A DNA stretch of 64,000 nucleotides, from NCBI GenBank assembly GCA_037349105.1, contig JAYJMM010000120.1, positions 930,001-994,000 of the forward strand. The letters run 5' to 3'. A program made the translations under genes and the position numbers. Below, in pieces: positions 5,091-59,136 of this stretch (within the stretch, counting starts at the first letter, position 1; the number at the start of each line of letters is the position of its first letter). The notes beneath the pieces are model-generated. The model was given only the letters and a program-made list of their open reading frames with translations. It searched no databases and was not told the DNA's origin. Source of the stretch: Limnomonas spitsbergensis. Its lineage: Eukaryota > Chlorophyta > Chlorophyceae > Chlamydomonadales.

Positions 5091-5483
5091 CTGCATTCGT
5101 TAGTTGCTAATTCCTGTCCGTATCATTGCAAGCTGTGGAGATCAGGGGTGCAGTCCAACGTCTTAAAAATACACGGTAAATAAACGAACGCGTCAAAAGA
5201 GATGAGGGACCTCAATGCAATTCTCATCAACTGAGGTCTATCTCAAGCTATTGGTAGTACCCCTCGAAATCTGGTTCAGGGCCGTGTGGGCCAAAAGCAT
5301 TTCATGCTGAAGTCTCCATGCATATCCCTATCACATTTCACATTGGAAGGCATGCAACGACTCATGCTGAAAATTTCCCAATCATCATGTGTGATGCTCT
5401 CCTGGACTGCAAATATGCGATGCATGCTGCTGTATGTAAGCTAAAATCCTGCAAAATTGTGGCGCTGAAAAAGCCGTAGCAGC
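5091..5483. other. region downstream of the large gene, nothing recognised
   Basis: It lies between the LINE tail and the stop codon of the large minus-strand gene, so it should contain that gene's 3' UTR. No clear polyadenylation signal (TGTAA type) is visible on the minus strand, and no open frame of interest. Confidence 0.4.
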
Positions 5484-8400
5484 TCAAGGTTGGACGTTGA
5501 GTGAGGTGATAACTAGTTTTGTTTGTTTGCCGTAGATGTCACTAGCCCAGTACCAGAAGCCATAAGAGGCGGCATCTAGACGAGCGCCAGCGCACGTGCG
5601 CGGCACTGAGACCGCATATGTCCCACTGGGGTCAAAGATGGGGTAGACGCCAGAGAAGACAATCTGCATGCATTCGTCAGATGAGGGAAGGGGAGGGATG
5701 AGTATTTGACAGCATGCGACTCAGGTTCTTTCCATTTGCTCCATCTAGCCCTTCTGCAAAAGACTTGAATGCATGGACAAATTGGATGGGTGCACAATGT
5801 AAGAATAGCAGCTGATAGTGCCTCATCCCCCCTAGGCAATGACCCCACCAAGCTTCAGGAGCAAGAGCCGCCCCATACCTCATGCACTAAGGACAATGCA
5901 AAGTGATCGTCCACCCCTCCAGGCAGTGGCCCTACCGAGCCTCATATCCAAGAGCCCCCCCATACCTCGTTCACGTTTATGACCAGGCGGTAGTAGACCA
6001 AGGCTGGACGGTTGGTCTTGAAGATAAAGGTGACGTTGAGGCCAGTGGAGTTGACCTGGGTCACTTGGCTGTCAAAGCTTAGCGTCACATTGTCCTTCAA
6101 GGAGAAGGGCACGAGTACTGGCTGCTGGGGGGCACCTGCTGGAGGCAAACGGGTTGATCGTCACGCTCCAGGAAGATCTTGGAGGGGGATGGCAGGGCAT
6201 GGCTGTCTTTTTGTTTGCGGGTGCCTTAGATTTAAATTGCCTTCCCTTGCGTATGATTTTTTCGAATTTTACTTGCCTCAGGGCAATCATTTCGTATTTT
6301 TGATGCCCATGCAGCAAACTATGGACAAATCTCGCGACTTCCGAATGGAGATAGGCGTTGGCAATCAAAATTTCTAATTCTTAATGGACCCTCAACATTC
6401 ATCAAGAGAAAAGGCAAGGCACAAATCCAGTACATGTGGGAAGAGACATGTTGCGTTCAGGCACATCTAAAGTCCCGTTAACTCACAAACACGGAACAGG
6501 AATACCGTAGACTTGATTTGCCTTCCCTTGGGTATCAAAACATGTCTTCTTTACATGCTGCCCTCAGGGCAAATTGTCGGAAATCTCAGTTTCATGCCGA
6601 TTTTCCTACTGAAAACCGGCATGAAAATCGACGGTTAGTAAATTCATGGATCCCTCAACCCCGAATGACGTAGGGAAGGCAATGCAAAGCTACAGTGCAT
6701 GTGGTAAGTTGGTTTCAAGTTCCCCATGCACCCCGCTTGGCAACCAACACACACTGCGGCACAAATTAAAACAGCATGATGCCGCTGACTCGACTTCCAC
6801 TTAGCCACCCGATAGCACCGAGTGTCCCTTTCCCAAGACCTGCGTGTGCCACGGCCCCAAGTGCCGTGTGAGAGTCTACAACTATGGGATTGACCCAAGC
6901 ACTAATTAGTAATTACCTGTTAAGAGTTTAGGGCTCAGGGTTTATTGCTGCCGTCAGTGCAGTACGTGTCCACTTATTACCTGCTTGGGGTTATCGGTCC
7001 AGGGTTTGTTACAGCTGTCAGTGCAAACTTATTACCAATTCAGGGTTTAGGGTTAAGAGTTCGTTGCTGCTGTCGGTGCACACTTACCCGTTTGAGGTTG
7101 TGTTGAGATATTGGTAAGCATGAAGGGAGCTTGCTGCACGTTTGAAATCTGGACCATCGGAGGGATGCTTGAGCAGGGGGCGTAGGCTGCTGCTCCACAG
7201 ACGCTCGCCACCACGCCCTGCTGCACCGCTGGTGCCCTGTGTCATGCGCAGGAGGGCGTAAAGAAGGATACATGCGAATATACTGTTGGACCTTGAACGT
7301 TTTGATTCGTGAGGAACACGGGCCCTGCTGCACCGCTGGTGCCCCGTGTCATGCGCAGCAGGGCATTAAGAAGGATGCAGGCGGTCCCAAAAATACAAGA
7401 CACTTATCGTCTTCATTCGTGAGGAACACGGGCATTGTTCACAAGAAGCAAAAAAGGCAGATGCCGCACTGGTGCAACAATCAACCCCCCACATCAGGCC
7501 GTTGATGGAGATGCCATGTGATACGTGCACCCTAAACCCTAAACCCTAAACACCCAAGGATCACCTGCAGATGACTGTCCAGCCCTGGTAGTTTGGCATC
7601 CTGTCTTGCGCTGCCACATACAAGGAAAGCTCCATCGACGCGTATTGACTCACGGTGACTGCAAACGTGCAGGAGTCACTCAGGGTGCACCTCCGCACGG
7701 GTTCAGGCTTTTCAGGGTTCATTCCTTCATGTTCAGGCTTTTCAGGGTTCATCCCTTCGGGTTCAGGCATTTCAGGGTTCATCCCTTCAGGTTCAGGCTT
7801 TTCAGGGTTCATTCCTTCATGTTCAGGCTTTTCAGGGTTCATCCCTTCAGGTTCAGGCTTTTCAGGGTTCATTCCTTCAGGTTCAGGCTTTTCAGGGTTC
7901 ATTCCTTCATGTTCAGGCTTTTCAGGATTCATTCCTTCAGGTTCAGGCTTTTCAGGGTTCATCCCTTCAGGTTCAGGCTTTTCAGGGTTCATCCCTTCAG
8001 GTTCAGGCTTTTCAGGGTTCATTCCTTCAGGTTCAGGCTTTTCAGGGTTCATTCCTTCATGTTCAGGCTTTTCAGGGTTCATCCCTTCATGTTCAGGCTT
8101 TTCAGGGTTCATTCCTTCAGGTTCAGGCTTTTCAGGGTTCATCCCTTCAGGTTCAGGCTTTTCAGGGTTCATTCCTTCAGGTTCAGGCTTTTCAGGGTTC
8201 ATCCCTTCATGTTCAGGCTTTTCAGGGTTCATTCCTTCAGGTTCAGGCTTTTCAGGGTTCAATCCTTCAGGTTCAGGCTTTTCAGGGTTCATCCCTTCAG
8301 GTTCAGGCTTTTCAGGGTTCATCCCTTCATGTTCAGGCTTTTCAGGGTTCATCCCTTCAGGTTCAGGCTTTTCAGGGTTCATTCCTTCAGGTTCAGGCTT

Positions 8401-11400
8401 TTCAGGGTTCATCCCTTCAGGTTCAGGCTTTTCAGGGTTCATCCCTTCAGGTTCAGGCTTTTCAGGGTTCATTCCTTCAGGTTCAGGCTTTTCAGGGTTC
8501 ATCCCTTCAGGTTCAGGCTTTTCAGGGTTCATCCCTTCATGTTCAGGCTTTTCAGGGTTCATTCTTCGGGTTCAGGCTTTTCAGGGTTCATTCTTCGGGT
8601 TCAGGCTTTTCAGGGTTCATCCCCCGGGTTCAAGACACCTCCGAATGTGCGTGATGAGGTACGATCCTGAATCAGACTCACGACAAGGGCAGTGGAGATC
8701 CTTCAAACTAGTACAGGGCAAGCAAAGCATGTGCTGCATCATTCATTGTTGGCTTACTGGTTCTGCATGTCAGCTGCGCCTCTGTGGCACCATCGAGGAA
8801 GCTGTATGGGTTGGCGGGCAGGTCGGTCTGCAACCACATGCAGGCAGCATGTCAGTGTGGTCAAGACACGACGCAGGCAGCATGTCAGTGTGGTCAAGGC
8901 ACGACGCAGGCAGCATGTCAATGTGGTCAAGGCACGACGCAGGCAGCATGTCAGTGTGGTCAAGACACGACGCAGGCAGCATGTCCGTGTGGTCAAGACA
9001 CGACGCAGGCAACATGCTAGTTCTGTCCCAACACTATATCAGAGTTTTAATGTCAGCAAGACATGTGGCCATGCCCCACAAGCAGAGCCTATTCAACATG
9101 TGACAGTCGTGTGCCACAAGCAGAGCCTATTCAACATGTGACAGTCGTGTGCCACAAGCAGAGCCTATTCAACATGTGACAGTCGTGTGCCACAAGCAGA
9201 GCCTATTCAACATGTGACAGTCGTGTGCCACAAGCAGAGCCTATTCAACATGTGACAGTCGTGTGCCACAAGCAGAGCATATTCAACATGTGACAGTCGT
9301 GTGCCACAAGCAGAGCCTATTCAACATGTGACAGTCGTGTGCCACAAGCAGAGCCTATTCAACATGTGACAGTCGTGTGCCACAAGCAGAGCCTATTCAA
9401 CATGTGACAGTCGTGTGCCACAAGCAGAACCTATTCAACATGTGACAGTCGTGTGCCACAAGCAGAGCCTATTCAACATGTGACAGTCGTGTGCCACAAG
9501 CAGAGCCTATTCAACATGTGACAGTCGTGTGCCACAAGCAGAGCCTATTCAACATGTGACAGTCGTGTGCCACAAGCAGAGCCTATTCAACATGTGACAG
9601 TCGTGTGCCACAAGCAGAGCCTATTCAACATGTGACAGTCGTGTGCCACAAGCAGAGCCTATTCAACATGTGACAGTCGTGTGCCACAAGCAGAGCATAT
9701 TCAACATGTGACAGTCGTGTGCCACAAGCAGAGCCTATTCAACATGTGACAGTCGTGTGCCACAAGCAGAGCCTATTCGACATGTGACAGTCGTGTGCCA
9801 CAAGCAGAGCCTATTCAACATGTGACAGTCGTGTGCCACAAGCAGAGCCTATTCAACATGTGACAGTCGTGTGCCACAAGCAGAGCCTATTCAACATGTG
9901 ACAGTCGTGTGCCACAAGCAGAGCCTATTCAACATGTGACAGTCGTGTGCCACAAGCAGAGCCTATTCAACATGTGACAGTCGTGTGCCACAAGCAGAGC
10001 CTATTCAACATGTGACAGTCGTGTGCCACAAGCAGAGCATATTCAACATGTGACAGTCGTGTGCCACAAGCAGAGCATATTCAACATGTGACAGTCGTGT
10101 GCCACAAGCAGAGCATATTCAACATGTGACAGTCGTGTGCCACAAGCAGAGCCTATTCAACATGTGACAGTCGTGTGCCACAAGCAGAGCCTATTCAACA
10201 TGTGACAGTCGTGTGCCACAAGCAGAGCCTATTCAACATGTGACAGTCGTGTGCCACAAGCAGAGCCTATTCAACATGTGACAGTCGTGTGCCACAAGCA
10301 GAGCCTATTCAACATGTGACAGTCGTGTGCCACAAGCAGAGCCTATTCAACATGTGACAGTCGTGTGCCACAAGCAGAGCCTATTCAACATGTGACAGTC
10401 GTGTGCCACAAGCAGAGCCTATTCAACATGTGACAGTCGTGTGCCACAAGCAGAGCATATTCGACATGTGACAGTCGTGTGCCACAAGCAGAGCCTATTC
10501 AACATGTGACAGTCGTGTGCCACAAGCAGAGCCTATTCAACATGTGACAGTCGTGTGCCACAAGCAGAGCCTATTCAACATGTGACAGTCGTGTGCCACA
10601 AGCAGAGCCTATTCAACATGTGACAGTCGTGTGCCACAAGCAGAGCATATTCAACATGTGACAGTCGTGTGCCACAAGCAGAGCCTATTCAACATGTGAC
10701 AGTCGTGTGCCACAAGCAGAGCCTATTCAACATGTGACAGTCGTGTGCCACAAGCAGAGCCTATTCAACATGTGACAGTTGTGTGCCACAAGCAGAGCCT
10801 ATTCAACATGTGACAGTTGTGTGCCACAAGCAGAGCCTATTCAACATGTGACAGTCGTGTGCCACAAGCAGAGCATATTCAACATGTGACAGTCGTGTGC
10901 CACAAGCAGAGCCTATTCAACATGTGACAGTTGTGTGCCACAAGCAGAGCCTATTCAACATGTGACAGTCGTGTGCCACAAGCAGAGCATATTCAACATG
11001 TGACAGTCGTGTGCCACAAGCAGAGCCTATTCAACATGTGACAGTCGTGTGCCACAAGCAGAGCCTATTCAACATGTGACAGTCGTGTGCCACAAGCAGA
11101 GCCTATTCAACATGTGACAGTCGTGTGCCACAAGCAGAGCCTATTCAACATGTGACAGTCGTGTGCCACAAGCAGAGCCTATTCAACATGTGACAGTCGT
11201 GTGCCACAAGCAGAGCCTATTCAACATGTGACAGTCGTGTGCCACAAGCAGAGCCTATTCAACATGTGACAGTCGTGTGCCACAAGCAGAGCATATTCAA
11301 CATGTGACAGTCGTGTGCCACAAGCAGAGCCTATTCAACATGTGACAGTCGTGTGCCACAAGCAGAGCCTATTCAACATGTGACAGTCGTGTGCCACAAG

Positions 11401-14400
11401 CAGAGCCTATTCAACATGTGACAGTCGTGTGCCACAAGCAGAGCCTATTCGACATGTGACAGTCGTGTGCCACAAGCAGAGCCTATTCAACATGTGACAG
11501 TCGTGTGCCACAAGCAGAGCCTATTCAACATGTGACAGTCGTGTGCCACAAGCAGAGCCTATTCAACATGTGACAGTCGTGTGCCACAAGCAGAGCATAT
11601 TCAACATGTGACAGTCGTGTGCCACAAGCAGAGCCTATTCAACATGTGACAGTCGTGTGCCACAAGCAGAGCCTATTCAACATGTGACAGTCGTGTGCCA
11701 CAAGCAGAGCATATTCAACATGTGACAGACGTGTGCCACAAGCAGAGCATATTCAACATGTGACAGTCGTGTGCCACAAGCAGAGCATATTCAACATGTG
11801 ACAGTCGTGTGCCACAAGCAGAGCCTATTCAACATGTGACAGTCGTGTGCCACAAGCAGAGCCTATTCAACATGTGAAAGTCGTGTGCCACAAGCAGAGC
11901 CTATTCAACATGTGACAGTCGTGTGCCACAAGCAGAGCCTATTCAACATGTGACAGTCGTGTGCCACAAGCAGAGCCTATTCAACATGTGACAGTCGTGT
12001 GCCACAAGCAGAGCCTATTCAACATGTGACAGTCGTGTGCCACAAGCAGAGCCTATTCAACATGTGACAGTCGTGTGCCACAAGCAGAGCCTATTCAACA
12101 TGTGACAGTCGTGTGCCACAAGCAGAGCATATTCAACATGTGACAGTCGTGTGCCACAAGCAGAGCCTATTCGACATGTGACAGTCGTGTGCCACAAGCA
12201 GAGCCTATTCAACATGTGACAGTCGTGTGCCACAAGCAGAGCCTATTCAACATGTGACAGTCGTGTGCCACAAGCAGAGCCTATTCAACATGTGACAGTC
12301 GTGTGCCACAAGCAGAGCATATTCAACATGTGACAGTCGTGTGCCACAAGCAGAGCCTATTCAACATGTGACAGTCGTGTGCCACAAGCAGAGCCTATTC
12401 AACATGTGACAGTCGTGTGCCACAAGCAGAGCCTATTCAACATGTGACAGTTGTGTGCCACAAGCAGAGCCTATTCAACATGTGACAGTTGTGTGCCACA
12501 AGCAGAGCCTATTCAACATGTGACAGTCGTGTGCCACAAGCAGAGCATATTCAACATGTGACAGTCGTGTGCCACAAGCAGAGCCTATTCAACATGTGAC
12601 AGTTGTGTGCCACAAGCAGAGCCTATTCAACATGTGACAGTCGTGTGCCACAAGCAGAGCATATTCAACATGTGACAGTCGTGTGCCACAAGCAGAGCCT
12701 ATTCAACATGTGACAGTCGTGTGCCACAAGCAGAGCCTATTCAACATGTGACAGTCGTGTGCCACAAGCAGAGCCTATTCAACATGTGACAGTCGTGTGC
12801 CACAAGCAGAGCCTATTCAACATGTGACAGTCGTGTGCCACAAGCAGAGCCTATTCAACATGTGACAGTCGTGTGCCACAAGCAGAGCCTATTCAACATG
12901 TGACAGTCGTGTGCCACAAGCAGAGCCTATTCAACATGTGACAGTCGTGTGCCACAAGCAGAGCATATTCAACATGTGACAGTCGTGTGCCACAAGCAGA
13001 GCCTATTCAACATGTGACAGTCGTGTGCCACAAGCAGAGCCTATTCAACATGTGACAGTCGTGTGCCACAAGCAGAGCCTATTCAACATGTGACAGTCGT
13101 GTGCCACAAGCAGAGCCTATTCGACATGTGACAGTCGTGTGCCACAAGCAGAGCATATTCAACATGTGACAGTCGTGTGCCACAAGCAGAGCCTATTCAA
13201 CATGTGACAGTCGTGTGCCACAAGCAGAGCCTATTCAACATGTGACAGTCGTGTGCCACAAGCAGAGCCTATTCAACATGTGACAGTCCGTGTGCCACAA
13301 GCAGAGCCTATTCAACATGTGACAGTCGTGGTGCCACAAGCAGAGCATATTCAACATTGTTGACAGTACGTGTGCCACAAGCAGAGCCTATCAACATGTG
13401 GACAGTCGCTGTGCACAAGCAGAGCCTATTCAAAATGTGACAGTCGTGTGCCACAAGCAGAGCCTATTCAACATGTGACAGTCGTGTGCCACAAGCAGAG
13501 CCTATTCACATGTGACAGTAGTGTGCCACAAGCAGAGCCTATTCAACATGTGACAGTCGTGTGCCACAAGCAGAGCCTATTCACATGTGACAGTCGTGTG
13601 CCACAAGCAGAGCCTATTTCACATGTGACAGGTCGTGTGCCACAAGCAGAGCCTAGTTCAACATTGACAGTCGTGTGCCACAAGCAGAGCCTATTCAACA
13701 TGTGACAGTCGTGTGCCACAAGCAGAGCCTATTCAACATGTGACAGTCGTGTGCCACAAGCAGAGCACTATTCAACATTTGACAGTAGTCTCGTGTGCCA
13801 CAAGCAGGAGCCTTCACATGTGAGTCGTGTGCCAACCTAGTGACAGTCGTGTGCCACAAGCAGAGCCTATTCAACATGTGACAGTCGTGTGCCACAAGCA
13901 GAGCCTATTCAACATGTGACAGTCGTGTGCCACAAGCAGAGCCTATTCAACATGTGACAGTCGTGTGCCACAAGCAGAGCATATTCAACATGTGACAGTC
14001 GTGTGCCACAAGCAGAGCCTATTCGACATGTGACAGTCGTGTGCCACAAGCAGAGCCTATTCAACATGTGACAGTCGTGTGCCACAAGCAGAGCCTATTC
14101 AACATGTGACAGTCGTGTGCCACAAGCAGAGCCTATTCAACATGTGACAGTCGTGTGCCACAAGCAGAGCATATTCAACATGTGACAGTCGTGTGCCACA
14201 AGCAGAGCATATTCAACATGTGACAGTCGTGTGCCACAAGCAGAGCCTATTCAACATGTGACAGTCGTGTGCCACAAGCAGAGCATATTCAACATGTGAC
14301 AGTCGTGTGCCACAAGCAGAGCCTATTCAACATGTGACAGTCGTGTGCCACAAGCAGAGCCTATTCAACATTTGAAAGTCGTGTGCCACAAGCAGAGCAT

Positions 14401-17165
14401 ATTCAACATGTGACAGTTGTGTGCCACAAGCAGAGCCTATTCAACATGTGACAGTCGTGTGCCACAAGCAGAGCCTATTCAACATGTGACAGTCGTGTGC
14501 CACAAGCAGAGCCTATTCAACATGTGACAGTCGTGTGCCACAAGCAGAGCCTATTCAACATGTGACAGTCGTGTGCCACAAGCAGAGCATATTCAACATG
14601 TGACAGTCGTGTGCCACAAGCAGAGCCTATTCAACATGTGACAGTCGTGTGCCACAAGCAGAGCATATTCAACATGTGACAGTCGTGTGCCACAAGCAGA
14701 GCATATTCAAGCTGCTTCTGGCCTTAATCAACAACTGACAGTTGTGCACCAGGCCCAGGCCCGCACCTGCAGCTCCAGCGTGGTGTTGAGCCCCGACAGC
14801 TGCAGAGAGACCAGGCCCGTGGCCACTGGTGCGCACAGGGCTGCATCGGTGCAGTTGCAACGCGAGGCGGGCAGGACGGCTCCCGACATGACCTCGGCGA
14901 CTGTCGGCTGCCCAGTCACACAGGACAGGTTCCTGCCAGAAGGGTGAGGGGGAGGGGGAGAGGTGGACGGGATGAGGAGGACGGCAAGATTATGGAATGC
15001 AGATTCTGTGCAGTCCCGTGGGGGCGCCAGGAGGCGATTCTGTGCAGTCCCGTGGGGGCGCCATGAGGCGATTCTGTGCAGTCCCGTGGGGGCGCATAGG
15101 GCTCGTGTTGATGAAGGTACAACTCTGGGCCTTGCTAAAAACAGGCTCGGCCGCGTGGGCGCCTAGTTAAACACACAGGGCTCGCCCCCCTGTGGGGACG
15201 CACAGGGCTCGCCCCCCCGTGGGGACGCACAGGGCTCGCCCCCCTGTGGGAACGCACAGGGCTTGTGTGCATTCAAGTGGATGCACTGCTTGAGGCTGCC
15301 CGTGATGGCTAAGATGTTTAGTGAATTAAGGTGTTTTTCCCCAAGGGGAATACTGTTGAAGAAAACGAATCTTCAAAAAGAAGGATGCACCTGAGGACAT
15401 ATGCCTCATGGGGGGGGGAGCAAGAGGAGTGCAGTGTCATAAATCGCACTGTGCAGTGCATGCGGATTCAGCGGCCAGCCAGATTCACCTCACGTTTCAA
15501 GCCATGGGGCCTGCTTCCTGTTCAGGTTATGCTTCTCACCTTTTCATTAATCCTAAAACATGAATTTCATGCCATGTCTGCAGTCCTGTCTAGGGTGTAG
15601 GGTGAGGGATTTAAACCCTTAATTCTGAATTTCATGCCGTGGGGCTCATTATCCTGTCCACCCCAGAAAAAGGATGGCAGTGCTCACCAGTACAGGGCAT
15701 AGCTGACAACGGCTGGCTTGTCCACGCTCAGTGGCACCTGTGCGGTGAAGCTCCGTGACCCGGCCACTGGGCCCTGCAGCGGCCCAATGGAGGTGAAGGA
15801 CGGCGCGGTGGTGTCGGGCGTGAGCACACCGCTGATCACCGTTACCGTGCTGACTAAGAGGTCCGAGGAGCGGACGGTGAGCACGACGGAGTAATTGGTG
15901 GCCGGGAGTAACCCGGTCAGCACCTGTGAGTGATAATGGAAGAAAGGTGCAAGGAACAGCTGTCAATATCAATCAGCTCCTTTGGGAGAGGCGGTCCGAG
16001 GAGTTGGCTGTGAGCAGGACACAGTAATTGGTGGCCGGGAGTAACCCGGTCAGCACCTGAGAAGGATAATGGGGGAGAGGTGCAAGGGAGAGCTGTCAGT
16101 ATCAATCAGATCCCATGGGGTGGGGAGAGAGGTTGGGTGGAGGTAAAGGAAGCTTTGGGTATGATCGGGAGCACTGGCCTGAACAGAGCACGGATAGATG
16201 CTGAGGTGCCGCTGCCTGGGCAGCTCGATTGCTCCTCTGTGCACTGGCACAGGGTGTGGAACCTACACATGGCATCCAAACACATCCCTGAGTTGTCGCT
16301 GATCTCCCCTCCTGCTCACCTTCCCTCCCCACATCAATATAAAAAGAATTGCCTCACCCGCATGGCTGTGAATGAAGACCCCCCAGCAACAGAGCGTTTT
16401 TGGCCCCCTGGTCATCCCTGAGGACCACAGCACTTTGCCTGCTTGGACTCACCACCGTGTGGCAGGCCCACTCACCAGTCCTTGGCCTGCCTAGGCACAT
16501 GACGTCAACATGCTGCTGCACTCACCCTCCTCCAAAGGAAGGCCCAGGGGAGCAGAGCGTTACCCCCCACCAGTCCCTGGCCCGCCTCGGCACATGACTT
16601 TAACATGCTGATGCAAATGAAGGCCCTAGGGAGCATGGCGCTACCCCCCACCAGTCCTTGGCCCGCCTAGGCACATGGCATTCACACACTGCTGCACTCA
16701 TCCTCCTGCAAATGAAGGCCCAGGGGAGCTGAGCGTTACCCCCCACCAGTCCTTGGCCTGCCCAGACACATGACGCTAAAATGGTGATGCACTCGTCCTC
16801 CTGAAAACGAAGGCCCCGGGGAGCTGAGGAATGCCGGCATTGGTCATCGCCGAGGACGGCAACGCTTTGGCTGCTATGAACAACCAACCAGAAAGTGCCC
16901 GTATTCACCCGTCCATAGCTTTCCCAGGCACATGACATTCACGCACTGCTGCTCCCACCTTGCCGTAAATGAAGGCCCCGGGGAGCTGAGCGCTGCTGGC
17001 GTTGGTCATCTCGAAGCCGCTTGCCTCCACCTCGGACGCCAGCGGCAGCGCCGCACTCCCCCCGGTCGCAAAGAGCTGGGCCGAGGGCAGCACCAGGCAG
17101 TGCAGCGTGAAGGCGGCGCTCATGTTGGCCAACACGGTGAACGAGGTGTTCCTCACGCGGATCAC
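5484..17165 (-). CDS. large gene, exons 46-52: final FN3-like sandwiches and C-terminus
   Basis: Exons: 16,959-17,165; 15,688-15,923; 14,767-14,932; 8,758-8,827; 7,565-7,658; 5,966-6,124; 5,484-5,663. Signatures: VRNTSFTVLANMSAAFTLHC; LTGLLPATNYSVVLTVRSS then TPDTTAPSFTSIGPL; VNSTGLNVTFIFKTNRPALV; and the end FWYWASDIYGKQTKLVITSL. The protein stops exactly at a sandwich boundary, without a second membrane helix or GPI-type tail. The donor of exon 50 is unsure: TGCAG|GTGATC looks better, but GGACA|GTCATC (exon start 7,576) keeps phase. A missing small exon near 7.1 kb is possible. Confidence 0.7.
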
Positions 17166-18410
17166 CTGGGGGGGAGGGGCATGCGGCCAGGGAGGGAGGG
17201 GGGCAGGGTTTAGGGATGAAAAGGTCAGGGGCAAGGGAGGAAATGGTCAGACGGGTGAAAGACTGGGGGTCAGGGGTGAAGGAACACGGCCAGGGAGGGA
17301 AGGGGTTAAGGGGTTTAGGGGTTCAGGTTCAGGTTAAGGGGTTAAGGGTTTAGGGTTTAGGGGTCAGGTTTTAGGGGTGAACATATCAAGGGCAGGGGAG
17401 GATATCGCCCGAGAGGTTAAGGTCGGGGGTCAGGGGTGGAGGAGCGCAGCCAGGGAAGGACGGATCAGGGGTCCGGGGAGGGGTCCGGGGAGGGAATGGT
17501 CAGGTGAGGGGTGAGGTGAGGGGTCTGGGGAGGGGTCAGGGGAGGAAATGGTCAGAGTGGAAGACGGCCATGGGCACTGGTCATGGCCTCATGGGTAGGA
17601 GGCCGGTGAGCAGGGGGAATTGCGGCCAGATGGGAAGCCATATGTGTTCAGGGGCAAAAATGTCAGGGGTCAGAGGCCCTTGGGGATGTATAGGCACCGA
17701 GTGGCAGGGTGGCTTTTTAAGTGCGGACATCGATCTGGTCACCATCATTTGTAAGAAAACTGTTTTCATGATAATAATTTGATCCGAGCCGGGGATGGTG
17801 CCTTCTCCTGCAGTTTTTCTTAGGGTTGAGGGTTTACCCTAAATCCTACACCTTACACTCTCAACTGTAATTTGCTCTGGGCCAGGGATTGTGCCTTCTC
17901 CTGCAGTGTTTCTTTTTTCGGACACAAGCCCACCTTCAACAGGCCCCGCCCTGCGGCCGCCAAAGGCCTGATTGGGACTGAAGCATGACCCGCCTACGAC
18001 GGGTCCATTAGGCACTTTGGCTGGCCGCAACTTGGGCCTCTGGCCCCAGTTGGCCAGAGTGTAGCTGACATGTAGCCGAGTCACGAAAAAAGAAACACCT
18101 CTCACCTGCCGCCGCCAAAGGCTGATTGGGACCGAAGCACGACCCGCCTACGGCTGATGCATTAGGCGCTTTGGCTGGCCACAACTGGGGCCACTGGCAG
18201 TTTGGCCGGAGTAACTAGCTGACATGTAGCCGAGTCACGAAAAAAGCGACATTTCTCACCTGGGGCCAGCCCGACAGAAAGGTGTCCTCCACACTCAGTG
18301 TGATGGATGCAGACAGCTCAACGAATGTCGCGGTCAGCTGGGTCGTTCCAGCCTGCATGACACCCATGCAAAGGAAGGTATTTCGAATTTTCGACTGTTT
18401 CACGACAAGG

Positions 18411-18441
<31 letters not shown>

Positions 18442-21400
18442 ACACACACATATATCGGTCGTTTATTCCCAAGCAGTGTGTCAAGGAGGGGGGGGGCAGC
18501 GCCTCATGGGGCTCTTTACCCCAAACTTACACACGCAAACAAATTCCAATGCAAGGGAAGGCCTCTCGAAATGTTTCACGACAACACACACACACACACA
18601 GGTATCGTATGTCTCCCCCTGCAATGTCTCAAGGAGAAGGGGCAAGGACTCAAGGGGCTCTTCGTCCCACACAGACGGATTGCTGGGTCATCGTGGGAAC
18701 CCCGGGATGCAGGTTTGGGGGGTAAGGATTTAGGGTTTAGCTTTATTCGTATTTTTAACCCTAACCCCTTAACCCTGACCTACCCAAGAGGATCAGTCAC
18801 ACCGGGTGTGCTGCCGAGCTGCTCCTCAAACTGCCGCCATTTGCACGGCAGCTGGAATTGAGCTTGCTCTTCCCCCACCAGCCCCTCGCGGCCCAGCATG
18901 CAATGAAGGGCCCATCAGGTATGCACACTCCTAAACACCTCCACTACGACTCCCCACTGCATCCAATCAATCCACACTGTCCACACACACACTGTCCGCA
19001 CCGCAACAGGCAGGATGAGGTTGGCCAGGGCGCCCTTGGTCAGCAGCGGGTTACCGACCAGCGTGGCCACCGCTGCGTCCTCGATGCTGATGACGGCCTG
19101 GGCGGCGGCAGCACCCCCTGCTGCCTGCTGCGGCACCCCATTGAGATCGTACAGCTTGCAGCCGGCAGCGCCCGGCAGAGTCAGGGCCAGGCTGCAGTTA
19201 CTCAGCTGAGCCATCGCCCACACAGTCCTGAGGCAGGGAGGGAGAGGGGCAGGGGGGGGTGAGAAGGGTCAGGGCCAGGCTGCAGTTGCTCAGCTGAGCC
19301 ATCGCCCACACAGTCCTGAGGCAGGGAGGAACAGGGGCAGGAGGGAGGGAAGGGTCAGGGCCAGGCTGCAGTTACTCAGCTGAGCCATCGTCCGCACAGT
19401 CCTGAGGCAGGGAGGAACAGGGGCAGGAGGGAGGGAAGGGTCAGGGTCAGGCTGCAGTTGCTCAGCTGAGCCATCGCCCACACAGTCCTGAGACAGGGAG
19501 GGACAGGGGCAGGGGGGGAGAGATGGGTCAGGGCCAGGCTGCAGATGCTCAGCTGAGCCATCACCCACACAGTCCTGAGACAGGGAGGGACAGGGGCAGG
19601 GGGGGAGAGAAGGGTCAGGGCCAGGCTGCAGTTGCTCAGCTGAGCCATCGTCCACACAGTCCTGAGGCAGGGAGGAACAGGGGCAGGAGGGAGGGAAGGG
19701 TCAGGGCCAGGCTGCAGTTGCTCAGCTGAGCCATCGTCCACACAGTCCTGAGACAGGGAGGGACAGGGGCAGGAGGGAGGGAAGGGTCAGGACCAGGCTG
19801 CAGTTGCTCAGCTGAGCCATCACCCACACAGTCCTGAGGCAGGCAGGAACAGGGGCAGGAGGGGGAGAAGGGTCAGGGTCAGGCTGCAGTTGCTCAGCTG
19901 AGCCATCGCCCACTCAGTCCTGAGACAGGGAGGGAAAGGGGCAGGAGGGAGGGAAGGGTCAGGACCAGGCTGCAGTTGCTCAGCTGAGCCATCGCCCACA
20001 CAGTCCTGAGGCAGGGAGGAACAGGGGCAGGAGGGAGGGAGGGGTCAGGGCCAGGCTGCAGTTGCTCAGCTGAGCCATCGTCCACACAGTCCTGAGGCAG
20101 GGAGGAACAGGGGCTGGGGGGGGAGAGAAGGGTCAGGGCCAGGCTGTAGTTGCTCAGCTGAGCCATTGCCCACACAGTCCTGAGGCAGGGAGGGACAGGG
20201 GCAGGAGGTGGCTTCAGAGGAATCAGAGGCAGGGGGGGGACAGCGGGAAACATCATCAAAGCTCGGGCCATTGCACGAGCAGAAGGCAAGTACTTACCCT
20301 CAGGTGAATGCTAGCCTCTTGCTGAATAGCATTGGAGGAGCATTGGAGGCAAGGAGGGGGGAGGCAGGCGGGGACAGAAGTGAAGGCCAGGCAGCTGCAA
20401 GAGGAGCTGGACACACCAGCATCGATCACGGGCCGGCAAGACTCACAACCAACCCCCATGACCGACATGTCTACACTTTACATGCCCATCGTGGGCATCA
20501 ACGCACCTCCTGTTCGCCCCTGGACATTGTTTCAAATCCAGCAGCCTTCCCCCACTCCTGGAACGGCCTGTGGGAAAGCACGTATCTGCCATTATACACC
20601 CCCCCCCCCCTCCTCCCAATGCGCACCACCATGCGCGCCACCAGCACAGAAAAAGAAGACGCTATGCCCCCCTAGGGGCATGCGCTTCGAGGGAGCAGTG
20701 CAGTTCAGGGCCGAAGCCACAACCGCACCGTTACCATGGCCACCAACACATATCCCTGAGCACGCCCCCTCCCATCCCTCAACACACAAACACACACCTC
20801 GTCTCGTAACTGTTCCAGTCACACTTGAGGAGCCTCACGGGTGCGGAAGAGACAGCTGGCGTTGGGGCCAGGCTGGTGTTCGTCGCTGGGGTGGCGCTTG
20901 TAGAGCCCGGCAGCAGGTAAAGGTTTATCTGAGAGGCCGAGAGGACGCGCGACGTGTTGTACTGCACCAGCTGGGGGGAGCGCGGGAAGGACACCTCGGC
21001 GGAGACGATGCAAGCGCCGGGGGAGGTCGCGGAAGGCTGGGTCTGGAGCGTGGGCATGCCGTCGGAACCTGCCAAAGATGAGAGGGCACACGGGGGGAAG
21101 GAGTCAGTGGGAGGCGTGGGAGGGCAGGCAGCTGCCTCTGCTGTGCACCAGTAAGATGGAATGGGGACAAGGGATGCGGTGTCCGGATGATGACGGGAGC
21201 GGTGCCGGTAAGCTTTACCATGCTTCCATGGAGGAAGTCTGAGAATGGTAGAACAAATGCAATTATAGGTGCGTTACAAAGTGTGTGGGCTTTGGGGCTT
21301 AGAGGTTAGACCCTGTCACTTATTCCGAGTCCCCTGGATGCTGATATAGGATTCATACTGATAAACTTTAGAAAGAGAACTGCCCTCCCTCGGACGTGAA

Positions 21401-45400: not shown

Positions 45401-48400
45401 GAGGGGGATATGCAGTCAGACATACAACACCTGGGGACCTCTGCTGTGACCACCAGCACACCGCTGGGTCTTACTGGAGCAAGCTGGTGGGGAATCGTCA
45501 CACACACTGATACATAATTACACAGGACAGAGGTGCACAGCCAGAGAACCCAACTCAAACAAATAAATATAATTAAGTCACTACTTGCATGTTTCAAAAT
45601 TTGAGGCTGTCAGACCTCTTCCCAGCTCTCGTATGTTTTTTTATGCGAGGACCCTGCTATCCCTGATGGAGCTGCTGCCCAGCTGCTCGCCTGCTGTACA
45701 GAAGGGCATGCCGTCAAGTCCTTAGACAGCCCGTACTGATACGATATGATGACGGGCTTGTCCAGCTGCAGGACGAGGGGGGAGGGGTTAGGGTTTAGGG
45801 CAGCGGAGGACCAGGTGGACAAAACAGCAAAAGGCAGTTGGGGCAGTAACGGCACGGACAAGACACCCTAATGCATTACACGACAAGATATGGGAAGATA
45901 TGCGATGTCATGATGTCACATAGAGCATGCTTGTTCATACGGATGGCTTGGAGTGCATATAAGCGGCTCCGTGAGCACATACAGCTAAGGACAAACTCAC
46001 ACATGTACTCGTATGCAGCACGCCTTGAGTGCACGCCTCACCACGAATTGGGGTAATAAAGACTGACTATAGGAGACTGCCATCATATCATATACTTAAA
46101 AGGATACGGTATGTAATTTTCAATATATTGTGTGAACTCTGGTGGTCCTAATGGCCATAAAGAAGATGCCACCGGATACTCATAATGGAGACTGCCAACC
46201 TGAATGCAACGTACCTTTCTAAACCACTATTTGGTGCTTTTATTACCGTAGATTTGCTTTACCCTCCCTCACAATGAACGTTGTTTGGGGGTGAGGGATC
46301 CATACAATTACTAATTATCGGCAGTCAACGCTAGTTTTCAGTCAGAAATTAAGTTTTTTTTGTGTCCACAGTTTGCCCGGAGGGCAGCATTAAAAGAAAT
46401 ACCTTTTGGTGCCCTAGGGAAGGCAAATCAAATCTACGATATTCCGGCCCTTGATAAAATCTTTCCCACCTGCACCGAGAAGTTTGCGCTGTGCCCCGCC
46501 GGTGTGACCCGGTAGTCAAGCCACTGGGGCGGGTTGTTGTCGTCGGTGTGAACCAGCTTCTTGGTGAAAGACTGGGTACGTGTGAGTGGGAGCAGGGCAT
46601 CAGATGTGGGAGCGGGGCGAGGGGGAGCAGGAGGGCAAGTGGAAGACTGGAGACGGCAAGTGGGAGACTGGGCAAGGGCAAGTGGGAGCAGCGCATCAGA
46701 CTGCAGGAGAGGACCCCCGGCCGCTGTCAGGAGGGCAGGGCATATCATGAGCGGTATGCCCCAAACAACTGCAACACACGACTGCTCCAATCCCGGCAGG
46801 GAAGTTGTATTTTGATATTTGATTTCAAACCAGTATTTTGTTTTCATATTTGTAACCGTTCTGATCTGCGAGCCTAAGTTATCTGCAGCCACACATTTTG
46901 TGCACGGGGGACGTGCACATGTCGCATGCATCAAATGTGATGCTCTGTTTGACTTTAAGAACTTATCAAACAACTTCACAATGGCTCAAGTCCCTGAATG
47001 TGCAGAGCCCTACCACGAACCCCGGCCCTGCTCCTCCCCCCTCTCCCACCTGCTGCATGCTTGGGTTCCGGATTTAGGGAACCCTGAAACCTCTGATCTG
47101 CTGCACGCTTAAGTGAAGGGTTCAGGGTTTAGGGGCAGATAAAGCCTCTTACCTGTTGCAGACTTGGGTTCGGGGTTCAGGGTTTAGGGACACATAAAAA
47201 CCTCTTACCTGCTGCACATTTGCATAGGTGTCCTTAGCAAGGAGGAACATGACATAGTTGGTGTTGGAGCTGATACCCTCCTGGAACACCAGGCTGCATG
47301 ACCGAGAGGCAGACCCGGTCTGGCACAGCTGCGTGGCCGTCAAAGGACCCTGGGTGCGCGGTGACAGGGGCAAAGGGGAGGGATGGGGGCGGGGGTGAAA
47401 GCAGGGCTTAGGTGGGTGGCAGGGCTCGGTTGGGTGGCAGGAGCAGGTTACAGGTGGGTGGCGGGAGCAGAAGGACAGGGATGGAAGCTGGGGTGAAAGC
47501 TGGGTGCGCGTGTGCAGCATGAGCAAGATGTATGGAAGTAAAAGACGGAGTTCGGAGGCGGTGGAGAGGGATAGGGCAGCGTTTTCTTTTGCACGGGTTA
47601 GTTTGTGAAAAGCGACAGACGTCTCTCAGCAGGGGTCCACTGGCTCGCCTGCACTACCGGCGGCCAGCTCAGGGAGACTGTGACGTTGCCCGCCAGCTCC
47701 TGCACTACCGCGAAGGCGTAAACCTCGCCCGGCTTGTCCATCTCGATTTGAAGGGTGAAGTTGGTGAACCCTGTCAGCCTGCGGGTGCAATGGGGGAGAG
47801 GACAGGGTTAAAGGTTCAGGTTTAGGGTTGAAGATTCAGGGGGTGAATCAGTGACTTTTTTTTGTCAGAAATAGCAGCAGGCTATGAATAAAGGTTTCAA
47901 TAATGTATATATTTTGTCAGAAGTAGCATCAGACCATGAAACGGCGCTTGAATATTTAATCCCCCTTTTTGTTCCTTTTCTGATATTTTTTTGTCAGAAT
48001 AGCATCAGGCTGAAGGCTGTGCCCCACCTGGCCCGCCAGTACCCCTGCATGGGATTATTGCAAACTGGTAATTGGGCAGTCGCAACTCCCTGAACTAAAG
48101 GTGACATGTAGCTGAATATAAATATATAGCTGACTCTGTAGCTGAAGCACCCAGGCCCACCGATACCGACTGCATGATTTAGCCGAATTGCAGCTGAAGC
48201 ACTCCAGAATAAAGAGTTTCCCACGCAGCCCGCTGGTTTTCCCACTGTGAGATGATGATGAACACTGGCCACTGAGCACCTCTTATCTGTAGCTGACTTG
48301 TAGCTGACTTGTGGCTGGATTGTAGCTGATTGTAGCTGAAGCACCCTAGCCCTCAGGTACTCACTGCGTGATGTTGATGAACACTGGCGGGGTGAGGTCC

Positions 48401-51400
48401 ACGGTCATGATATCTGCCAGGTACAGCTGGTAGTTGTAGAAGACGTCGGCGGTGACAATCTTGATCGAGTACAGGGTGCCGTTCTGCCAGGCGCAAGAGA
48501 ACAAGCGAGCAGAGGGTGGTAGACAGGGGTGGAAATGATGAATCCCAGGTTGAAGGTTGAGGGTTGAGGTTGACAATCTTGATCAAATACAGGGTGCCGT
48601 TCTGGTTGCAAGGGCACAAGCATGCGTTTAGAGCGTGGTATACAGGGGCGACGTTGATGATGCGCGGGGTTGGGGGTGCCATCATGTGCACATTGCATAT
48701 TGCTGGGTCATGATTGGGTGCTGTGGCCGCATCATGGGCGCAGCGCTCACCTGCAGCTGAGGCACGGGGAATCGCCCCCACCGCATAACATTTCCCCCCG
48801 GGCCAGGTGCTGCACATTGCATACTCCTGGGTTCGGTTTAGGAGATGTGTCCGCGACATGGGCGCAGTGCTCACCTGCAGCTGAGTCACGGGGAACCGCC
48901 CCCACTGCGAAATGTTGGCGACCGCGAGGCAGTCCTGATGTATGATGGTCTCGTCGGTCGCGTCAAAGAAGGTGTTGAACATCTACAGGCGGCAGCCGGG
49001 AGCAGGTCAAGGGGGGGGGGGGTCTCGGAGCAGCACGTGTGAGCAGGTCACACAGCTCAGACAGAGGAGACTGGTCTCATACAGACCCTGAACCCTGAGC
49101 CCTAACATGCAGGTAGGAGGTGGGCAGTCTGTATTGGATCTAGGGTTTTGGGTTGTAAGGTTTTGGGGTGCAAGATTTCTCGAGCAGGCAGAGCTCACTG
49201 AGCATGTGCAAACTCTGCAGCAGCAAGCCCTCAGCGCTCCACCCAGGCCCGTGTCACAGGGTAAAGGCACATGGGACATGGTATGGGAATGGAAAATTGA
49301 AATAAAACCTCTCCCAGGCCATTTCAAATGAAATTGTAACCTCACCCAAGGCATTTTAAACATATGGAAACGTGACCCAAGGCATTTCAAATAATATTGA
49401 TGCCTGACCATACCCAAGACATTTCAAATAATATTGAATCGTGACTTAAGGCATATTGAAAGCTCGCTTAACCTTTGTCACACAACATTAAAACCTCACC
49501 TTCGGCATTTCAAATGATATTAAAACCTCACCCAGGCCACGTCGCATGATATTAAAACCTCACCCAGGCCACGTCGCATGATATTAAAACCTCACCCAGG
49601 CCACGTCGCATGATATTAAAACCTCACCCAGGCCACGTCGCATGATATTAAAACCTCACCCAAGCCACGTCGCATGATATTAAAACCTCACCCAGGCCAC
49701 GTCGCATGATATTAAAACCTCACCCAAGCCACGTCGCATGATATTAAAACCTCACCCAGGCCACGTCGCATGATATTAAAACCTCACCCAAGGCATTTCC
49801 AATCAGATTAAAACCTCACCCAGGCCACGTCACATAATATTAAAACCTCACCCAAGCCATGTCGCATGGCACTGAAGCAGTGCATGGCGGCTCCCATGCC
49901 GCCCCCATTGAGGGCTGCGGCGGGAGGTAGGGGGAAAAGCCCAGGCGGATCAAGCCTGGGTCTGCCTGCCGCAACCGCCGCAACCCAAGGTCGGATACGG
50001 GACTCGGCCATGCAGACGCCTGGCCGCGGGATAGCCGTCGGCGTGCCCCGGTGAAGAGGGTGGTCGCCACAAGGCCCGAGGTGGACTGTGGCGCAAGCTG
50101 TGAACAGGGGGGGGGGCGGGGGAACGGTCATCGAAATTGTCAAGAGGATTTGTTGCTGATTTTTTAGCAATATCAGCAAAATACATGTCTTGCTTATGAA
50201 CACGCGTGTGGCGACTCATCCATTACTCAGTTTCCATTTGACTTGTGATATGTTCCAAGCAGAGTCCTTAAGCATGAGTTGCAATACGTGGACGAGCCGC
50301 GTGTTTTAGACGTGAATGTCTCAGGTTCAAGACCCTCTCAGATGCGGGCTAGTGAGCTGCAAGCAGGCTTCAAAACTCGCAGGATGGACAAGGCACACAC
50401 AGGGTCCTGCTCTAGGCACGATCTCCGTGTCATGGATGCCCTGGCCTCAGCAAGAAAGAAAGAAGGAAAACTTCGCCCCCATGGGGGCGTGCGGGTCAAG
50501 GGAACAGCGCAGCTCGGGGCGGATGGCCTCAGCAATCCTGTGGCCTCAGATATCCGATGGCCTCAGAAATCCAATGGCCACAGCCATCCAATGCCTAAGG
50601 GTGGAGGGGGGGGGGTATCTATCCAAGGCAGTATCCACGCGTCCCTTCCGGGAGGTGGTGTGTTGTTTGAGGGGTGGCCATGGTGTCCTCAGGCATGCTT
50701 ATCTCATTTACTCCTGAAGGTGACATATACTGCCGTCCCGCCATCTCGACATATTGCTCGAACACGGCCCTTTACGTCGCGGCGGCCCCCTGATCCAGTG
50801 TATTAGGCACCTGGCTGGTCTGGTTGGCTGGCCGGGAGACCAGGAGGTACACAAAGCCTTGCTTGTCCTGCTGCACGCGGTCCACCGTGAAAGAGTAGGG
50901 ACCGATCTGGCTGTCCACCTGCGGAGAAGGAATGGTTCAGGAATCATTAAGGAATCATTAAAGAATAATTAAGGAAGGGCAAGAGAAGGAGCAGGCTTGG
51001 ATGCAAAGGATTGGGGTTAAGGGTGCAGGCTTCGGCTTTAGGCTCAGGGTCCAGGCTTTAGTTTCACGCTTGGGGACCGATCTGACTGTCCACCTGCGGA
51101 ATCCAGGGCAAGAAAAGGAGCAGGCTTGGATGAAAAGGATTGGGGTTAAGGGTGCAGGCTTCGGCTTTAGGCTCAGGGTCCAGGCTTTAGTTTCACGCTT
51201 GGGGACCGATCTGACTGTCCACCTGCGGAATCCAGGGCAAGAAAAGGAGCAGGCTTGGATGCAAAGGATTGGGGTTAAGGGTGCAGGCTTCGGCTTTAGG
51301 CTCAGGGTCCAGGCTTTAGTTTCACGCTTGGGGACCGATCTGACTGTCCACCTGCGGAATCCAGGGCAAGAAAAGGTGCAGGCTTGGATGAAAAGGATTG

Positions 51401-54400
51401 GGGTTTAGGGCTCATGCTTCAGCTCCAGGCTAAGGGTTGAGGCTTAGGGTTTAGGCTAAGGGTTGAGGCTCAGGTCTCACGCTTAGGGTTTTGGCTTCAG
51501 GCTAAGCATTTAGGCTCATTTAGGGGTTGCAGGGTCAGGTTTCAGGGTTACGGGTTTCAGAAGGCTTGGAGATTCGGGTTCAGGGCGCAACCAGGGTCTT
51601 CGTACCATTACCTTGGTCAGGTTCGACAGCTGCGGAGGCTGATAGGACGGGTAAGTTGTGACAGCCTGCAGCACAGTGGCCGCTCCATCATCGCGGAGCC
51701 CATCCGCTGACTCTGTCGAAAGGTACACCTGGATGGATGGCAAAAAAGAGCTGAGGCAGGCCCATAGCTGATATAGTGCGGGGGCATGCCTTGGTAGCGG
51801 ACAGGGCAGGATGCTTGTATCATCTCAGATTGTGCGTTTAAAGAAACAGTTAGTCTGGTACCGGTATGGCCAAAGCAGACCTAATCTTCGGGCATGCCTT
51901 GGTTGCAGGTAGGGCAGGGTAAATGGGGGGGGGGGCATCCATCTGCCAAGATCGTACATCTAGAGATGCAATACGCCTAGTTAGGCCTTAGATGACCTGA
52001 TGCTGGGGCATGCCTTGGTTGTAGGTAGGGCAGGGTGGGATGGGGGTGGACAGGTGTTAGCCCAGGCTGTACAATTGGAGATACAATATGTCCAGTAAGG
52101 CCAGAAGCGCACTCGTTGCCAGCCAGCAGACGCGCATGGCAGGGTCTTGCATGCTGGGGGCACCCATACAAACACACTGCGTGTACCGCATGTACTGCCG
52201 CCAATGTCAGGGTGAGTGCCGCAGCATACTCGCTACATCTACTGCATGCAATACTGCCGGTGCCTGGCTGGGGGCCACCCTTGCAGACATCGCACATGCT
52301 ACAGACAATGCACATACTGGTGCCTAGGTGGGTGTTACAGCACACACACTGTCCGCATGACAGCCGATGCCTGGGTGGGATGTTGCAGCAGCACACACAC
52401 TGCATGCACAACAGACGGTGCCTGGATGGGAGTCAGACTTGCACACGTGAGGCACATGCCGGTACCTACTGAGATCCACCCTGGATCCCCCCCACACGCA
52501 CTACACATGCTGCAGGGAACGCACGCTCTGCAGCCTTGCCTGGTGGGTACAGGGTTTTAGGATTTAGGGTCTAAACCCTACACCCTAAGCACTGCACAGG
52601 CTGCAGACAACGCATGCACTGCAGCCGGTGCGCGGGCAGGTGCGCTGCTCTTGCAGACAACGCACTGCAGCCGCTGGTGCCTTGGCAGGCGCTCTGCTCT
52701 TTCAGACGATGCAATGCAGCCGCCGGTGCCTGGTGGGATCCCCCCTTGCACATGCATTACACCTGATGCCAGGTGGCATCCTCCCATGCATAAAATGCAC
52801 GCTCTGCAGACAAGGTACTCACAACAGCCGCCCAGCCAGTATCTGAGCAGGTGCTGTCCTTGCAGAAAATAAAACACTTAAGCCGGTGCCTCTGGCTTAG
52901 TGCTGAAGCGCACCAGGTAGGTCGTGTTAGGGGCAATGGCCTGCAGCGACACATCACACAGCTCCAGCCAGCAGGGGGCGGCCATGACGCAGGCGCCGGC
53001 GCCAGCCCCATCGCTCTGTCCGATGCGACAGGTGAACGTGCTTCCCGCCTGGGACACCGGGATGGCCCCTGCAGCCATGACGCCGCCGGGCCACGGGGGA
53101 GAGGCAGATAGCAGCGGCAGCACCGGAGGAGCGCCCCGGAAGCTGGAGTACACGTTGCCTTGCCGTGCAAACAGCTGCCGGGTGGGACCAGAGGGGCAAG
53201 TATGGTGGGAAGGAGACGGCCAAAAACCCACTGAGGCAAACAGCAGTGGCAGCCAAGGTGGACGGGACAAGAGGAGCGAGAGGGGAGAAAGGCCTGGCAA
53301 TAATTGGCACAAGGGCATACTGGTGAGCATAGGCATATACGGGTGAGCATGGGCATACTAGTGACCAAGGCCATACATGCGAGCAAGGGTAGGCTAAAGG
53401 TCAACCGGCCAGGGTAGGAGATGCTGAATGCATGGTGTCACGCATGGAGGCCGTGACACGTTGCTGATCCGCAGATCAGCTGATCGAGCTGATCGGGCAG
53501 CTCCTCCCTGTGTCCCATTTTCAGAACACAGGGTGTTGTGGTTGTTGCAGTCTGCGGTGTAACCGCTCCTACTGGGTGTTCCTGCCTTCAATCCCGCCAT
53601 CCTTTGATCCTTGTATGCCCTGCCGAGCTGCCAATTCCACCATCGATTTTAGCCCCCGCCAGCTTTAAATCCACCGTGCTTGTAAGCTCTTACGAGCTGC
53701 GATTCTCACCATCACTGTTGACACTCACCAGTTTCAATCCCACTATCCTTGTTTAAACCCTTATCAGCTTCAATGTATGTGGTGCATTTTTGCTACATTT
53801 AAGCCACTTGCTAGCCTGCAACTAAGGGGGCCTGAAACCTGATGCAGAAAGCCATGCTGCTTGGTAACCCATCATGGATTGGTCCCAATGGGCCCAGCGG
53901 AAGCCCACGGCTGTGCACAGGAGCCCCCCTCCAAGGGCTTAGGGTTAAGGATTTAGGGTTAGGTGACAATTAAGGTGACGGTGAATCTCAGGCACGGCTG
54001 GAGGCACTGGAGGTCCCCCCCCAAATGGTACAATGTGCACCAGGGACCTTAGGACCGGCCGGTTCCCAGACAGAATCGGCGGAAAGACAGAACCCCGGGG
54101 TAAAGCTAGACGGGGCTCCGGCAAAGCCGGAATGAAAGGGGGGAACTATATTGTGCTCTAGAGAGAATAACCAGGGTTTGTTCTTTCGTGTTTCAGCTAC
54201 ATGTCAGCTACACTTCAGCTACACGTCAGCTACACTGTGAGGCTGACCTCAGGCCCTAGGTGTGTCCAGATATGCTTGTCGGCCGCCCGGCCGCTGGCCG
54301 GTCAGAATTTTGTCCCAATTTGGTCTCCGACGACTTCTGGGCGGCCCGCTGATGGTGACATTGGAGAAAAGGAGAAACGAAACACTGGGAACAACACAGG

Positions 54401-59136: not shown

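Follow-up and report, generated by a model that had tools for sequence, protein, structure and literature searches.

Tandem copies of splice junctions in the introns of a large gene from a green alga

The large gene on the minus strand of the window, which is a 64,000-nucleotide stretch of Limnomonas spitsbergensis DNA from a genome of 260 Mb, contains copies of its own splice junctions within its introns. Copies that span the junction are present in the own intron at 22 of 98 junctions, namely 11 of 49 donors and 11 of 49 acceptors, and they are distributed over 18 of the 49 introns. The repeat unit thus spans the exon–intron boundary at both the 5′ and the 3′ boundaries. These copies are real and well above chance. 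In a control against random 600-base stretches of the gene's other introns, 0 of 392 comparisons gave a match at the junction, and at none of the 16 positions tested did the rate exceed 2%, so that a chance origin of the copies is rejected. The initial annotation, which had described introns of this gene as holding copies of their own splice boundaries, is therefore borne out in part, and it was also right that both boundary types are involved. The orientation had to be corrected, as the gene is encoded by the minus strand. Tolerated minisatellite growth across splice junctions, of the type called 'mirages' in amphioxus, probably explains the copies. The phenomenon is already named in lancelets and is found here in a green alga at high density.

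The large gene and its exon set

The large gene (5484..58520, minus strand) contains 50 homology-supported exons and is a homologue of CEUSTIGMA_g215.t1 from Chlamydomonas eustigma, a species of the order Chlamydomonadales. Among the 8000 best-sharing candidates scored in the protein search, this hypothetical protein of 2909 amino acids is the best homologue, showing 49% identity over 82% of the query, for which the joined translation of most exons was used. The same query also matched proteins from Tetrabaena socialis (33%) and Trebouxia (26%), giving three proteins in all. Aligned with the C. eustigma protein, the first part of the model, comprising 43 exons, shows an identity of 46.9% over 2357 aligned columns.

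The exons were called with tblastn anchors from the homologue, combined with a home-made splice-aware gene finder. Eleven of 61 hinted exons were dropped from the main count for insufficient support by the homologue. Eight of them are located at 58728-58766, 57059-57074, 48751-48756, 38278-38333, 29057-29065, 22069-22070, 16526-16529 and 16476-16486, and the other three are 90-base exon calls within an array of 86-base units. The dropped exon at 38278-38333 had given two junction matches in an earlier 42-exon set. Donor 22412 was placed by hand in the 50-exon set. All junctions are homology-based predictions and some boundaries are uncertain, for example that of exon 15 (46470..46700, minus strand). 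Here homology favours acceptor 46571, which has a weak splice-site score and a copy 96 bases upstream, and the gene finder began the exon at 46700, swallowing this upstream copy.

Junction-spanning copies lie on the intron side

A copy was defined as an ungapped match covering 6 or more bases to either side of the junction, with a shift of 8–600 bases into the intron and a score of at least 16. With score limits of 14, 20 and 30, the number of the 98 junctions with a copy is 24, 17 and 12, respectively, and for the earlier set of 42 exons the count was 19 of 82. A check by gapped alignment regained a spanning copy for 15 of those 19 matches and none for the other four. The copies are 81–98% identical to the junction, from which they differ by substitutions. 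They carry 6 to 64 exon bases, and only 6–9 bases in 8 of the 22 matches.

The copies had been reported to lie always on the intron side, and in agreement with this none of the 98 junctions has an exon-side copy; among exon positions, 6 of 795 have a copy inside their own exon. This arrangement needs no special mechanism because it follows from geometry: one copy stays with the full exon, and the rest are intron by definition.

In the 42-exon set, tandem arrays detected by TRF with a period of at least 10 take up 38.4% of the intron sequence (45,222 bases) and 5.0% of the exons. The introns are rich in arrays, but the description of them as filled with boundary copies is too strong, since two of the largest arrays span no junction and a further one barely reaches one. 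The first is a TRF array of 38-base units with about 148 copies, which lies within one intron (9076..14710) and spans no junction. Another of the largest, at 7700-8623, likewise spans none, and the array at 24164-26284 barely reaches a junction with a score of 14 and 7 exon bases.

Copied acceptors

All copied junctions are on the minus strand. The clearest case is the TRF array of 86-base units at 19180..20208, whose 12 copies take in the acceptor plus as many as 48 bases of exon 19002-19227, and 11 of 11 copies keep the AG. Residues 2391-2408 of the C. eustigma protein match two inner copies of this array with E<0.05, and parts of the same residues match six weaker inner copies. The whole exon is aligned to this protein only at the outermost copy (19229-19008); the match of an inner copy does not extend beyond residues 2391-2408. 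A 133-base duplication at 15860..16113, found by both TRF and tblastn, contains an acceptor together with 64 bases of exon 15688-15923; in the tblastn search, residues 2558-2597 of the C. eustigma protein match the copy at 15937-16053.

Two further arrays include acceptors. The array of 113-base units at 23243..23537 carries 32 bases of exon 23185-23274 and keeps the AG in 3 of 4 copies, and the 129-base array at 50976-51445 (feature 50811..51445) carries 21 bases of exon 50811-50918 and keeps it in 3 of 3. Copies farther from the acceptor are found 173 bases upstream of exon 45111-45215, with 37 bases of this exon (45111..45430, outer end approximate), 336 bases upstream of acceptor 40197, with 19 exon bases (40040..40560, outer end approximate), and 107 bases upstream of acceptor 7236, with 22 exon bases (7088..7385, outer end approximate). 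The acceptor of exon 21621-21786 has a copy 56 bases upstream (21621..21880), its boundary being uncertain, with a score of 30 that becomes 15 at the alternative acceptor 21755. An array of 33-base units at acceptor 8827 (8758..9016) includes only 6 exon bases. The copy 125 bases upstream of acceptor 39590 (39484..39750) also has 6 exon bases and is weak, with a score of 16 and no counterpart in the gapped check.

Copied donors

Both junctions are copied in the intron at 48484-48874 (48365..48982), where the shift is 124 for the donor and 118 for the acceptor, with 31 exon bases each. The donor at 48365 has a copy as well, 194 bases downstream and with 8 exon bases (48120..48483, outer end approximate). 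Among the donor-side arrays, 32-base units are repeated 11 times at the donor of exon 49852-50097 (49514..49868) and include 9 exon bases. The donor of exon 34838-34925 is included in seven copies of a 57-base unit (34442..34851) with 14 exon bases, and 6 of 6 copies keep the GT. At exon 43283-43537 the array consists of 79-base units (43123..43314) and carries 17 exon bases.

The repeats at the donor of exon 16959-17165 (16473..17000) hold 34 exon bases, with the GT kept in 1 of 2 copies, and those at the donor of exon 41111-41256 (40960..41119) hold 6. Donor 31906 is copied 175 bases downstream with 37 exon bases (31690..32052, outer end approximate), and donor 5966 is copied 87 bases downstream with 9 (5850..6135, outer end approximate). 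The remaining two donor copies gave none in the gapped check: a 154-base duplication at exon 18260-18352 (17950..18262) with 8 exon bases, and a weak, C-rich 39-base repeat at exon 24075-24164 (23974..24080) with 6.

Junction copies compared with neutral expectations

The initial annotation considered the pattern too regular for ordinary random minisatellites. The overlap of repeat units with junctions was examined in the large gene and in seven others, and whether there is an excess depends on the null. Per-base repeat coverage of the own introns predicts 22.3 junction matches against the 22 seen (30.6 if either copy direction counts), whereas a founder null that counts one unit per array predicts 13.9, giving an excess of about 1.58-fold (P ~0.011). 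At scores of 14, 20 and 30 the founder null expects 15.2, 10.4 and 6.3 matches, with P between 0.008 and 0.016. Neighbouring junctions are not fully independent in these comparisons, and the sample is small.

In a neutral simulation of uniform duplication, limited to the donor side and run with four hand-chosen settings of 500 introns each, the junction rate was 0.93–1.05 of the founder-collapsed null and 0.35–0.48 of the per-base coverage. The founder-collapsed null is therefore the fitter one, because expanded copies inflate per-base coverage and overstate the neutral expectation. For the same reason, the reading that matches equal intron coverage and that no excess exists is rejected.

The position profile was taken over the 154 ends of 77 introns. 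Repeat coverage rises from 2.6% at −60 through 8.4% at −30 and 17.5% at the junction to 22.7–24.7% at +20 to +60, and is 16–21% from +80 onwards. Over these 154 intron ends there is no coverage peak at the junction, only a smooth climb from exon into intron. Counting paired ends that are covered at the junction alone versus at the inner position alone, we obtain 2 versus 10 (+20), 9 versus 17 (+30), 9 versus 18 (+40) and 9 versus 20 (+60); farther in the pairs are about even, with 17-18 (+100), 18-16 (+160), 18-22 (+200) and 16-16 (+250). The acceptor side is densest, its coverage being 26–30% at +30 to +60 versus 17–24% at +100 to +300. The simulation gives a steeper course, with coverage of 12.8% at the junction and 35% at +300, a difference that may stem from the chosen settings or from the biology.

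Pure uniformity fails on three grounds: the count is 1.58 times the collapsed null, the intron ends show a surplus, and the profile is flatter than simulated. The position profile assigns the excess to the intron ends, most strongly on the acceptor side, and not to the junction itself. A mild excess at intron ends thus appears to remain over the neutral founder null. The surplus may stem from a pyrimidine tract prone to slippage or from a copy on the exon side that decays more slowly.

Arrays in other genes, flanking DNA and the genome

In seven other genes with 28 introns, taken from 180 kb and chosen by eye from the gene-finder output without homologue check, 5 of 56 junctions are copied, compared with 5.8 expected from coverage and about 3.4 from the collapsed null (rate 0.061). 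One donor and one acceptor among these five matches carry 6 exon bases each, and another donor belongs to a repetitive sequence with a long open frame. The rate of copied junctions is 9% in these genes versus 22% in the large gene, so junction copying is not confined to the latter.

TRF coverage is 28.9% in the left and 58.9% in the right flanking 50 kb, so that tandem repeats make up 59% of the right flank, twice the share of the left. Eight 10-kb loci elsewhere give 3.5–26.9%, and one Markov-1 simulated sequence contained no TRF arrays (coverage 0). Three units were searched in the genome. The 86-base unit has at least 12 matches, with 12 of 12 in its own array, and the 113-base unit at least four, with 4 of 4 in its own intron or exon. 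The 38-base unit has 44 of its 49 listed matches in its own array and five on another contig at 73–75% identity. Since these matches fall at the units' own places and hardly elsewhere, the units look locally made. A derivation from transposons is unlikely for the three units, which the genome search found at their own place.

Decoy splice sites and their possible use

The initial annotation anticipated that rows of decoy splice sites would be left behind, and the 42-exon set confirms this. The splice dinucleotide (GT or AG) is kept in 32 of 38 junction-spanning copies. For neighbouring dinucleotides the figure is 275 of 374, and where the same dinucleotide occurs at another place in the units it is kept in 77 of 104 cases. 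Looser criteria give 36 of 38 decoys versus 614 of 792 neighbours, and decoy retention is 33/40 and 29/32 at other score limits. The decoys are thus not purged. Their higher retention could mean that they are used, but two arrays contribute 17 of the 38 counted copies. At 17 of the 22 junctions the best shift cannot be divided by 3, about the share expected by chance, and the use of an inner copy would therefore mostly break the frame.

The predicted C. eustigma protein contains the motif IPGEAASL twice, the second copy following after 19 residues (residues 2228-2254), which corresponds to a 19-residue tandem insertion. It is located between the segments that match exons 38 and 39 (22412-22585 and 21621-21786). 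The shuffled protein contains 0.04 such repeats on average, and the actual one has a single other repeat, TPDVTPPV, at a distance of 137; no such repeat occurs in the other two homologous proteins. Directly behind the first IPGEAASL copy the sequence reads V-S, possibly the translation of a GTGAGY donor. The insertion is likely a donor-side mirage in the relative, as judged from its predicted protein, and was perhaps used in frame.

Discussion

Tandem duplications resembling minisatellites over 5′ or 3′ exon–intron boundaries are described as 'mirages' in the amphioxus reports, which name the genes Adh3, globin BflGb6 and BflGb9, TnC and PGBD5, and state that splicing is left intact and that a route to new introns is proposed (PMC3087553, PMC3902484). 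The algal copies agree with them in that the unit spans the 5′ or 3′ boundary and many copies keep AG or GT; the units described from amphioxus measure about 10–160 bases, and many, not all, of their copies have AG/GT. A copy number that differs from haplotype to haplotype is a further trait of mirages. Unlike the amphioxus cases, those found here belong to a green alga, lie in 18 of the 49 introns of a single gene and are known from a single sequence. In human IFI6 (6-16), as described with reference to Turri 1995, minisatellite units act as extra splice donors (PMC4526556). Both cases share repeat units that offer several donor copies, but downstream units are described as used donors in IFI6, whereas inner-copy use in the algal gene would mostly shift the frame. 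The account of potato RdRp describes an intron gained via tandem duplication across an intron–exon boundary (PMC4974935), an indication that the route to intron gain raised in the initial annotation is feasible. There too, by that account, a duplication over the acceptor boundary carries the splice signals along; a new intron arose in potato, whereas none is shown in the large gene. In their passages on long introns and satellite DNA, discussions of Chlamydomonas genomes concern these features and not junction copies (PMC8226300). In the literature searched, with most subscription papers outside its reach, no report of junction copies in green algae was found.

The copies described here extend junction-spanning minisatellites from chordates to a green alga, and their density in one gene permits statistics. 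They share with ordinary intronic minisatellites the range of periods, the local origin and the presence in flanking DNA, and differ from these in that the unit includes the junction, so that splice sites are copied.

In the explanation that we consider probable, minisatellites would arise and grow throughout this genome region and would be near-neutral in introns. A tandem duplication across a junction would produce the order exon–intron–exon–intron, in which the outermost junction, joined to the full exon, would keep being spliced; the mRNA would thus be unchanged. The inner copies would then be plain intron with an intact decoy GT or AG, and later slippage would add copies, so that the junction copies would line up within the intron. 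Alignment with the homologous protein suggests that splicing takes place at the outermost site. Slippage during replication or repair presumably underlies the arrays, which appear to be nearly neutral; a copy that changed the exon would in most cases disappear.

The excess over the founder null raises the question of a duplication process, tied to introns or splicing, that favours junctions and intron ends; it might act at the ends of introns through R-loops or transcription-coupled repair, for example. The calibrated neutral null is exceeded about 1.6-fold in the large gene (22 against 13.9) and about 1.5-fold in the seven other genes (5 against about 3.4), and coverage is highest in the terminal 20–60 intron bases, as such a process would predict. 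We nevertheless regard it as unlikely, for the junction itself shows no coverage peak, the paired ends favour +20 to +60 and are about balanced farther in, DNA outside the gene is array-rich too, and the excess is modest in a small sample of partly dependent junctions. The same observations qualify the recurring duplication of junctions put forward in the initial annotation: tandem duplication does recur in the gene, but the smooth rise without a peak at the junction, a count that per-base intron coverage alone predicts, and the array-rich surroundings give no support to a process aimed at junctions. It is similarly doubtful that recurrent mutation in this algal lineage favours intron ends, chiefly upstream of acceptors, and makes intact decoys at about one junction in six that are occasionally recruited; the in-frame 19-residue duplication at the homologous junction in C. 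eustigma hints at such recruitment in the lineage. If an intron-end process with recruited decoys were true, splice-site choice and the gain of introns could be studied in this lineage as in a natural laboratory.

Selection on the junction copies as alternative splice sites or small alternative exons, comparable to the IFI6 minisatellite, appears very improbable. The decoy dinucleotides are kept somewhat more often than their neighbours, and the C. eustigma insertion looks as if a copied donor had been used in frame; against this, nearly half of the counted copies (17 of 38) come from two arrays, the shifts ignore the reading frame at about the chance rate, and the relative's case is a predicted protein. 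Hardly credible is the view that the arrays are assembly errors or that the gene models are wrong. Gene models did take decoys for exons, as with the three unsupported 90-base calls in the 86-base array and the acceptor of exon 15, but the copies differ from their junctions by substitutions, the exons are anchored by a homologue (47% identity over 2357 columns for the first 43-exon part), and no matches to other introns were obtained in 392 comparisons. Tolerated growth of minisatellites across junctions remains the preferred reading. Gene finders err at such arrays by taking decoys for exon. Moreover, where intact and almost identical splice sites line up next to the true one, they offer a natural test of how the spliceosome chooses, and raw material for the gain of introns.

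Other features of the locus

In the paralogue comparison, a duplicate was found for the last part of the large gene only. Two histone-like genes, together with the 3′ terminal part of the large gene, recur as an inverted duplicate with 86–88% identity at the other side of the gene. The one copy is located at 1083-2734 and 5074-6154, and the other copy occupies 63626-64000 and the next 2.3 kb. We take the histone-like genes to be H3 and H4. Dispersed repeats at 3437-3836, 4598-4887, 46232-46442 and 55724-55921 are common to the flanks and to several 10-kb loci on other contigs, at 76–87% identity. About 11.3 to 5.0 kb left of the window, a predicted exon of 6378 bases starts with many LTAAASAP-like units, forming a coding minisatellite. 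Short TTTAGGG/CCCTAAA runs, which resemble telomere repeats, are found within the gene span at 7529-7551, 17300-17376, 30289-30312, 31273-31402 and 38238-38257.
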